64,000 nt of DNA from Alphaproteobacteria bacterium (GTDB lineage Bacteria; Pseudomonadota; Alphaproteobacteria; UBA8366; Aestuariispiraceae): positions 1,550,001-1,614,000 of the forward strand of contig JAWPMN010000001.1 in assembly GCA_033344895.1 (NCBI GenBank), in the 5' to 3' direction. The position numbers and the translations under genes are program-made. Positions 40,469-61,756 of this stretch are shown piece after piece; within the stretch, counting starts at the first letter, position 1, and each line of letters starts with the position of its first letter. The notes below the pieces were generated by a model. It saw only the letters and a program-made list of their open reading frames with translations. It made no database searches and had not been told where the DNA came from.

Positions 40469-40561
40469 GCGGATTTCCTTCCGGTTGAGGCGCGGGCGGG
40501 GCTACTAGACCGTCTTCGCCCCCTGGCCGCAAGAACCCATGCCGCGATTGCCCCGCTCCCA

Positions 40562-55749: not shown

Positions 55750-55832
55750 GTTCCCGCAATCGCAGGAACGCGATCAATGTCGCGTCGTGCTCCTGCGAAA
55801 GCAGGAGCCTTCCCGACACGGCGCCTAGGCGC
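55750..55832. repeat. Inverted-pair palindromic repeat, copy 1 (upstream of the GIY-YIG gene)
   Basis: Element A (55750-55769, GTTCCCGCAATCGCAGGAAC, one mismatch in the stem) and element B (55789-55808, GCTCCTGCGAAAGCAGGAGC) face each other, starts 39 bases apart. The tail CTTCCCGACACGG leads into a perfect 12-bp palindrome, GCGCCTAGGCGC, at 55821-55832. Confidence 0.85.
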
Positions 55833-55856
55833 GAGTAACGCATGATTATCGCCGAG

Positions 55857-55915
55857 GTTCCTGCTTCCGCAGGAACATGGAGGCTGCTGCATCGTGCTCC
55901 TGCGAAGGCAGGAGC
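55857..55915. repeat. Inverted-pair palindromic repeat, copy 2 (directly before the GIY-YIG gene)
   Basis: Element A (55857-55876, GTTCCTGCTTCCGCAGGAAC) and element B (55896-55915, GCTCCTGCGAAGGCAGGAGC), again with starts 39 bases apart. It ends 20 bases before the GIY-YIG ATG. Confidence 0.88.
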
Positions 55916-55935
55916 CTTCGTGGTATCTTCTACCC

Positions 55936-56220
55936 ATGGTCGCACACGTCTACATCCTGGCATCGAAGAAAGACGGTGCCCTGTATATCGGCGTGACGAC
56001 ACAGCTCGCCCAGCGCATGGAGCAACATGCGGCCGGTGTCATTGGCCATACCGCCCGATACAACATTCGCCATCTCGTCCATCTGGAAGAGTTTGAGAAT
56101 CTGCAGGATGCCCGCGAAAGGGAATGGCGGCTCAAGAAATGGAAGCGGGCGTGGAAGGTGGAGTTGATCGAGGCCGGCAACCCAGATTGGCGTGACCTGC
56201 GATCTGAGATCCGCGCTTAA
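55936..56220 (+). CDS. Single-domain GIY-YIG nuclease
   Basis: A small nuclease of 94 residues: HVYILASKKDGALYIGVTTQLAQRMEQH carries the GIY-YIG pair (Tyr6-Ile-Leu and Tyr17-Ile-Gly), Arg27, and AREREWRLKKWKRAW with the conserved Glu (61 or 63). This is the stand-alone family of about 90-100 residues found in many copies in alphaproteobacteria; its biological role is not known to me. No ribosome site precedes ATG 55936. The gene is 20 bases after repeat copy 2 and 9 bases before copy 3, so it and the repeats look like one unit. Confidence 0.9.
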   Translation: MVAHVYILASKKDGALYIGVTTQLAQRMEQHAAGVIGHTARYNIRHLVHLEEFENLQDAREREWRLKKWKRAWKVELIEAGNPDWRDLRSEIRA

Positions 56221-56229
56221 GGCAGGAAG

Positions 56230-56288
56230 GTTCCAGCTTTCGCAGGAACACGGTAGTGGCTTTGGCGCGCTCCTGTGGAAGCAGGAGC
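56230..56288. repeat. Inverted-pair palindromic repeat, copy 3 (directly after the GIY-YIG gene)
   Basis: Element A (56230-56249, GTTCCAGCTTTCGCAGGAAC) and element B (56269-56288, GCTCCTGTGGAAGCAGGAGC), starts 39 bases apart. The tail CTTCTCGACACCGGCGCTAG resembles that of copy 1. Confidence 0.87.
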
Positions 56289-56318
56289 CTTCTCGACACC
56301 GGCGCTAGCCGCATACAA

Positions 56319-56348
56319 AAACCCCCGGCCCATCGGACCGGGGGTTTT
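56319..56348. terminator. Intrinsic terminator for pnp (two-way)
   Basis: ACCCCCGG (56321-56328) pairs with CCGGGGGT (56338-56345) round a 9-base loop. TTTTTG follows on the minus strand and TTTTC on the plus strand. It ends pnp and any transcript from htpG or the GIY-YIG gene. Confidence 0.9.
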
Positions 56349-61685: not shown

Positions 61686-61756
61686 GTTCCTGCTTTCGCA
61701 GGAACTCGGTCAGTGAGGCGGCACGATACAGGGCGTGCTCCTGCGAAAGCAGGAGA
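61686..61756. repeat. Inverted-pair palindromic repeat, copy 4 (without a nuclease gene)
   Basis: Element A (61686-61705, GTTCCTGCTTTCGCAGGAAC) and element B (61737-61756, GCTCCTGCGAAAGCAGGAGA), starts 51 bases apart instead of 39. It lies between the convergent amine oxidase and ask genes. It is the same family as copies 1-3 near the GIY-YIG gene. Confidence 0.85.

Follow-up and report, generated by a model that had tools for sequence, protein, structure and literature searches.

A small GIY-YIG nuclease gene bracketed by REP-like hairpin pairs as a probable RAYT-free REPtron-like cassette

Introduction

The window analyzed here, a stretch of 64,000 nucleotides (positions 1550001–1614000) of the 4.64-Mb single-contig genome of an alphaproteobacterium, contains a gene for a small GIY-YIG nuclease that stands between inverted pairs of short palindromes. 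The initial annotation of the window placed this gene in the position that a RAYT transposase takes among REPINs, and proposed a non-RAYT element that moves or maintains the repeats. The locus raises the question of whether the nuclease and the repeats belong together, and what the nuclease does to the repeats.

REPs have been sorted into the GTAG and CGTC superfamilies, and the accessible part of the 2013 survey by Di Nocera et al. (PMC3733652) says that the CGTC class "apparently lack a dedicated transposase". According to that text, the CGTC REPs have a stem of 8–9 bp that nearly always starts with AT, a 4- or 5-nt loop, a CGTC tag, and a CCA tail; they form dimers in opposite orientation and are mostly alphaproteobacterial, and the dRS3 element of Neisseria is their CGTC-1. 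This part of the survey reports no tyrosine transposase gene with flanking CGTC REPs and suggests that the enzyme may have disappeared or that the class relies on transposases of a broad spectrum; the word "nuclease" occurs there once, inside a reference title.

Results

A GIY-YIG gene enclosed by three hairpin pairs

The nuclease gene and the hairpins of the window are as follows.

55750..55769, no strand assigned: REP-like hairpin, first of pair 1; loop AATC, which belongs to neither orientation class
55789..55808, plus strand: REP-like hairpin, second of pair 1; loop GAAA, CGT before and CTTC after
55857..55876, minus strand: REP-like hairpin, first of pair 2; loop TTCC
55896..55915, plus strand: REP-like hairpin, second of pair 2, directly upstream of the nuclease gene; loop GAAG
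55936..56220, plus strand: GIY-YIG nuclease gene, 94 aa; PF01541 match with E 1.1e-15; 51% identity to the Neisseria gonorrhoeae homologue
56230..56249, minus strand: REP-like hairpin, first of pair 3, directly downstream of the nuclease gene; loop TTTC
56269..56288, plus strand: REP-like hairpin, second of pair 3; loop GGAA
61686..61705 and 61737..61756, no strand assigned: dispersed hairpin pair of the same kind, starts 51 bp apart, intergenic

The sequence bears out the three hairpin pairs described around the 94-residue gene: in all 3 pairs the hairpin starts are exactly 39 bp apart, pair 2 ends 20 bases before the ATG (55936), pair 3 begins 9 bases after the stop codon (which ends at 56220), and the tail CTTCYCGACAC...GGCGC is found in copies 1 and 3. 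An alternative GTG start at 55894 would lengthen the gene by 14 aa and overlap a hairpin. Three hairpins have one altered arm base each, namely the hairpins that open pairs 1 and 3 (GTTCCCGC and GTTCCAGC) and the last hairpin (GCTCCTGT); the only ground for calling the hairpin at 55750–55769 minus is its analogy with pairs 2 and 3. When up to 3 mismatches are allowed, GTTCCTGCNNNNGCAGGAAC has 9 matches in the window (one of which, at 40561, looks unrelated) versus 0.40 expected, and 0 of 100 shuffles reached 9. When folded as single-stranded DNA, 2 of the 3 pairs at the gene outscored each of 200 shuffles, whichever strand was folded, and the remaining pair was equalled by 2 of 200 shuffles on the plus strand and by 0 on the minus strand.

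The pair at 61686–61756, a fourth pair that is missing from the initial annotation, lies between two ORFs that resemble an amine oxidase and an aspartokinase (named by eye from their translations). Between the cassette and pnp, a GC-rich inverted repeat with a terminal T-run (56318–56348) is a candidate ordinary terminator, distinct from the REP hairpins.

The gene product is a small single-domain GIY-YIG protein of 94 residues, homologous to the Neisseria protein (47 of 93 aligned positions identical to the gonococcal homologue), and its Pfam match clearly predicts the GIY-YIG fold. Profile comparison matched the solved structures of the UPF0213 proteins 1zg2 and 1ywl and of UvrC (1yd6). In an alignment of 18 relatives, the invariant positions include Y6, G14, Y17, G19, R27, H31, E63, and N82 of the window protein, among which are presumably the catalytic GIY-YIG residues. 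At E 0.001 the genome has no other match to the family of this nuclease; an NCBIfam search with it gave nothing above the cut-off, and a PADLOC search gave weak partial matches only. The hairpins had sub-threshold Rfam matches only, the best of those to the pairs being miRNA families, which we took as chance.

The repeat family in the window's genome

Exact sites of GYTCCTGC-N4-GCAGGARC number 57 in the genome. When up to 2 mismatches are allowed, 110 matches per strand are found, where the reversed control pattern gives 59, and background may thus account for about half of the matches at this tolerance. This control applies to single hairpins at up to 2 mismatches; for the hairpin pair, the reversed pattern gave 0 matches. 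The 57 exact sites and 15 accepted one-mismatch sites (among the matches listed) make 72 sites in 33 clusters, 14 of which are single and the others pairs or more; 4 of the 19 one-mismatch sites (8951, 1042998, 1651272, and 2466560, among the matches listed) were judged unrelated and left out. The genome thus carries dispersed REPs in inverted pairs, as REPIN/RAYT systems do, and many genomic copies, as does an Ssn-type cognate repeat (described below).

Among 39 neighbor spacings in the genome, 55 bp occurred 15 times, 51 bp 9 times, and 39 bp 3 times; the 39-bp spacing is not general, all 3 cases being those at the nuclease locus. An array of 17 hairpins (2652965–2653832) with alternating spacings of 55 and 51 bp holds 16 of the 24 spacings of these two lengths and resembles a BIME in this alternation. 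It lies outside the window and contains no nuclease gene of this family.

For 25 of the 57 sites the context was counted. Read with the GNAA-type loop on top, CGT preceded the stem at 16 of the 25, CTTC followed it at 16, and both were present at 10; the stem starts with GC or GT. The repeats avoid ORFs: 12 of the 25 sites lie in a mechanical ORF versus 914 of 1000 random positions, the clustered sites not being independent. From the adjacency we infer that this repeat is the cognate of the window nuclease. A search for the Y1/RAYT transposase (PF01797, E 0.001) gave no match in the window's genome, and as a control the same search was positive in 5 of 14 named genomes. The gene flanked by the REPs is the GIY-YIG gene.

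The arrangement in other genomes

Nuclease genes of this family are paired with hairpins well beyond the window. Hairpins with arms of at least 8 and loops of 4–5 were counted around the best 80 of at least 580 loci in GTDB genomes, of which 4 with flanks below 200 bp were dropped. In this wide set, hairpins stand within 200 bp on both sides at 37 of 76 loci, versus 7 of 891 control ORFs, and versus 5 of the 237 control ORFs that have gaps on both sides (Fisher 1.6e-21). At least one side carries a hairpin at 52 of the 76 loci, versus 161 of 891 and 51 of 237 controls. Of 424 hairpins in 1.27 Mb, 133 lie inside a nuclease gene or within 250 bp of one, where approximately 5% were expected. Within the best 80, no recurrent neighbor gene family occurred within 4 kb (mechanical ORFs) at more than 5 of the 80 loci.

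In the window's order the nuclease family (E 1e-10) is found in 13 of 43 genomes. Hairpins within 200 bp flank 20 of 22 loci on at least one side and 12 of 22 on both, beside 5 of 10 and 0 of 10 for the few control ORFs available. The architecture is shared in the order and the stems vary between genomes; one genome (G002) has three nucleases with three distinct stems.

Among the matches listed, an oriented motif hairpin lies within 300 bp at 73 of 102 nuclease loci. A nuclease usually found away from the repeats, which the initial annotation had named as counting against its proposal, is therefore not what the loci show. No recognized motif hairpin lies within 300 bp at the other 29 of these 102 listed loci, which include a five-member Bradyrhizobium clade (L055, L056, L059, L060, and L075) whose nucleases lack the tagged hairpins. 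In 4 of the 5 clade members a GCAGCACTTCGTGCTGC palindrome lies 20 bp downstream of the nuclease instead; this branch is perhaps domesticated, or GCAGCACTTCGTGCTGC is perhaps another cognate site. A GTC tag with a YCCA-type tail is present on at least one hairpin at 58 of the 102 loci (among the matches listed), and the tagged and tailed loci from named records span 12 named phyla, many of these records being metagenome bins, whose assignment can err.

The arrangement also occurs on plasmid records: of 6 examined among 26, hairpins flank the gene on both sides in 5 and on one side in Photobacterium; further plasmid records entered only the comparisons of filled and empty sites. Of the 17 contigs examined among 18 classed as viral (IMG/VR, L144–L160), hairpins flank the gene on both sides in 13 and on one side in 3, and 1 has no flanking hairpin; these contigs may be prophage or host fragments.

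Consensus and orientation of the flanking hairpins

A consensus was derived from hairpins chosen by stem and loop alone, with loops fitting neither class left out. The even class reads CGTC-ATTCCCGC-GNAR-GCGGGAAT-CCA and the odd class GTC-AT..-CTTGA-..AT-CCA, so that the bases outside the stem are conserved on both sides, CGTC before and CCA after. In a lenient test on the wide (best 80 of at least 580) and order sets, 168 of 187 hairpins carried the GTC tag and 118 of 187 both tag and tail.

The hairpins that bracket the gene have a preferred orientation. Among the matches listed, the nearest oriented hairpin is plus in 52 of 63 cases upstream and minus in 43 of 58 downstream, counts that leave out 17 upstream and 20 downstream hairpins of unclear orientation. 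The order in the window (55896 plus, gene, 56230 minus) is this general orientation; an exception is Azospirillum lipoferum, in which the inner hairpins are reversed.

The window repeat, with an 8-bp stem and a 4-nt GNAA-type loop, falls within the 8–9-bp stem and 4–5-nt loop of the CGTC REPs. It lacks their tag (CGTC, TGTC, or CCTC), CCA tail, and AT stem start, which most of the nuclease-flanking repeats possess, and it is therefore a diverged relative, not a strict CGTC-REP member. Because the same arrangement is found in relatives of many phyla, the GIY-YIG family is likely the partner of the CGTC-REP superfamily.

Clustering of loop class and co-occurrence of nuclease and repeat

Loop class (4-nt or 5-nt) clusters on the nuclease tree. 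On the tree of 102 nucleases (among the matches listed), which has few columns, weak support, and some rows that are close copies, it required 12 changes versus 20.8 for shuffled labels, and 0 of 300 shuffles were as low; 73 loci were labeled, 7 of which have both classes nearby and were labeled by the nearest hairpin. For 19 loci of the window's order, 1 change was required versus 6.6 (0 of 300 as low). No clustering was seen when the 23 named alphaproteobacterial loci were taken alone (7 changes versus 6.8; 225 of 300 as low).

Repeat copy number is associated with the nuclease, and the equal numbers in genomes with and without it that the initial annotation had set down as contrary evidence were not found. 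In the order, the median number of repeats net of control is 22 in the 13 genomes with nuclease versus 5.5 in the 30 without (p 6.5e-5, with no phylogeny correction). In the class (144 genomes with completeness of at least 90%, including the window's genome, G000, and its congener G010), at least 10 net copies of the 4-nt-loop pattern were found in 14 of 46 genomes with nuclease versus 5 of 98 without (p 7.6e-5, with no phylogeny correction), or 14 of 45 versus 4 of 97 with G000 and G010 removed. In these comparisons, "with nuclease" means at least 100 bits (order, giving the same 13 genomes as E 1e-10) or E 1e-25 (class), "without" may include weaker GIY-YIG matches, and the count patterns miss many stems.

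Several genomes are rich in repeats without a full nuclease: 6 of 30 in the order (at least 15 net copies), namely G010 (90), G038 (37), G017 (25), G006, G001, and G007, and 5 of 98 in the class (at least 10 net copies), namely G010, G076 (92), G083, G121, and G169. G010, of the same genus as the window's genome, has 90 net copies, mostly of the 5-nt-loop class, and no nuclease match at E 0.001; it is a natural case of repeats without the enzyme. The Y1 protein (PF01797) is absent from 15 of 22 other repeat-rich genomes and present in 7.

Gain, loss, and duplication of the cassette

The initial annotation proposed a comparison of filled and empty loci after htpG. The sequence after htpG differs between relatives, so no clean empty site is given there, but two other lineages provide the comparison. 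(i) Between sufB and sufC of Azospirillum lipoferum 4B, a 617-bp gap contains one hairpin pair, the nuclease, and a second hairpin pair as a unit, and five relatives examined (90–97% identical in the matched parts) have no unit, with gaps of 91, 87, 129, and 55 bp in the four that are annotated. (ii) A hairpin-bounded unit is present in Shinella WSC3-e and HZN7 and absent from H4-D48 and S. oryzae; its order (minus, plus, gene, minus, plus) is that of the four hairpins nearest the window's gene. At the diverged filled/empty boundaries of Azospirillum and Shinella, no target-site duplication was readable.

In another genome (G015) the unit is in tandem duplicate, with 340 of 450 bases identical in register. 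Nuclease copies broken by stops are present in G015, G019, G020, and G024. Beside htpG, a nuclease match is lacking in all 13 other genomes of the window's family, and the coordinates place the nuclease genes of G000, G002, G009, and G011 at different positions relative to htpG; the genes do not share one allelic target, as those of a free-standing homing endonuclease would.

The Neisseria homologue and dRS3

dRS3 is a 20-bp ATTCCC-N8-GGGAAT palindrome with hundreds of copies (PMC3898611; dRS3/NIME also in PMC2267715). The accessible part of the PMC3898611 review links it to a filamentous-phage integrase, and "giy" occurs 0 times in that text. Two gonococcal records deposited as plasmids carry a nuclease homologue; in the one record examined, the gene encodes a protein of 94 residues and is flanked by dRS3 upstream and downstream, within a 4.3-kb stretch that contains 16 dRS3 copies.

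We take this gonococcal homologue to be the protein named Ssn. A group of site-specific single-stranded GIY-YIG nucleases of Neisseria and other bacteria, called Ssn, was reportedly described in Nature Communications in 2025; the Neisseria Ssn is said to bind a repeated sequence with hundreds of copies and to modulate transformation, and its homologues reportedly each have their own cognate sequence. The Ssn report suggests that part of the nuclease–repeat finding is already in print. The present analysis tested cassette gain and loss, the orientation of the hairpins, their co-occurrence with the nuclease, and a connection with CGTC REPs. Among the titles and abstract openings listed, which mostly leave out the subscription literature and fall short of proving an absence, none links GIY-YIG genes to REPs, CGTC repeats, or dRS3.

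Discussion

The locus is probably a REPtron-like cassette in which a small GIY-YIG endonuclease replaces the RAYT and is surrounded by copies of its cognate palindromic repeat, and the nuclease is most likely one of the Ssn kind that cuts its own repeats, within a RAYT-free REPtron. On the first point the initial annotation holds: the nuclease stands in the place of the RAYT, a Y1 protein is absent from this genome and from most of the other repeat-rich genomes, and the units recur across phyla. That the nuclease may move or maintain the repeats, as it also proposed, is a weaker suggestion; repeats are abundant in some genomes without a full nuclease.

In the mechanism that we propose, the nuclease would recognize the repeat as a single-stranded DNA hairpin by its stem, its loop of the GNAA type, and the conserved bases that adjoin the stem, and would nick it at that place. 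Recognition and cutting of a single-stranded hairpin are suggested by the anatomy of the repeats together with what is reported of the Neisseria Ssn. Whole hairpin–nuclease–hairpin units would be gained or lost as cassettes, and diverged hairpin copies, often as inverted pairs, would be scattered over the genome. That the cutting itself drives the spread of the repeats is a weaker suggestion. A wider proposal, which we put forward tentatively as possible rather than probable, is that the GIY-YIG family comprises the dedicated mobilizing enzymes of the CGTC-type REPs, a second, RAYT-independent REPtron lineage in at least 12 named phyla, in which cassettes and hairpin pairs would be copied by nicking of the single-stranded hairpin at the tag and nuclease and hairpin would co-diverge.

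The nuclease may instead act as a gatekeeper and not as a mover: it would cut incoming or exposed single-stranded DNA at its repeat, the repeats would multiply by recombination and horizontal transfer, and the cassette would be carried along. The gonococcal homologue within its dRS3 array and the several genomes that keep repeats without a full nuclease are consistent with this explanation, which also parallels the Neisseria Ssn in its reported modulation of transformation. However, gatekeeping alone leaves unexplained the preferred orientation of the bracketing hairpins, the presence or absence of the unit between sufB and sufC and in Shinella, and the tandem duplication of a whole unit, and we consider it somewhat unlikely.

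That the hairpins are ordinary terminators or mRNA stabilizers flanking a small gene by chance is very unlikely. According to the accessible text of PMC3733652, transcription of REPs is often plausible and they function as RNA elements, and the avoidance of ORFs by the window's repeats would fit such a function, but no T-run adjoins the window's hairpins, a separate inverted repeat supplies one, and hairpins on both sides are rare beside other genes (5 of 237 control ORFs). Terminators in particular are ruled out by the conserved bases outside the stem and by the presence of hairpins both upstream and downstream of the gene.

GIY-YIG is a homing-endonuclease fold, and the patchy presence of the gene (13 of 43 genomes of the order) would also suit a free-standing homing endonuclease that spreads by cutting alleles without it, the hairpins marking the insertion sites. 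Homing, however, targets one allele, whereas the nuclease genes occupy different places across the genomes of the family and dozens of repeats hold no gene, which makes this explanation very improbable. Finally, the spread of the repeats by a Y1 transposase with the GIY-YIG gene as cargo, despite the REPIN-like inverted pairs and BIME-like alternation and a Y1 protein in 7 of 22 repeat-rich genomes, is scarcely credible, being largely refuted as the driver in the window's genome by the lack of a PF01797 match there, with PF01797 absent also from 15 of the 22 and no tyrosine transposase gene flanked by CGTC REPs in the accessible part of the 2013 survey (PMC3733652).

Small GIY-YIG nucleases sit between CGTC-type REPs from the Alphaproteobacteria to Neisseria and several candidate phyla. 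In its accessible part, the 2013 survey (PMC3733652) left the enzyme of the CGTC class open, and the present data point to one family. Were the nuclease to mobilize the repeats, REP systems would have two origins, each with an enzyme unrelated to the other; were it only to police them, the repeats would serve single-strand restriction as a target system.

The element has several known counterparts. Like the window nuclease, Ssn is reportedly a small GIY-YIG protein with a recognition sequence in many copies. As far as the accessible texts describe them, the dRS3/NIME elements of Neisseria belong to the same class as the repeats that flank many GIY-YIG genes elsewhere, and the consensus of the CGTC-REP superfamily matches that derived here around the GIY-YIG genes; the window repeat differs from this consensus in having CGT, a stem that starts with G and C or T instead of A and T, and CTTC in place of CCA. 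The REPIN–RAYT/REPtron systems of pseudomonads and enterobacteria share with the present one the inverted REP pairs, the BIME-like arrays, and an enzyme gene bracketed by REPs. By contrast, the enzyme there is of the HUH/Y1 type and the tag is GTAG, whereas here the enzyme is a GIY-YIG nuclease, with neither a GTAG tag nor a Y1 protein.
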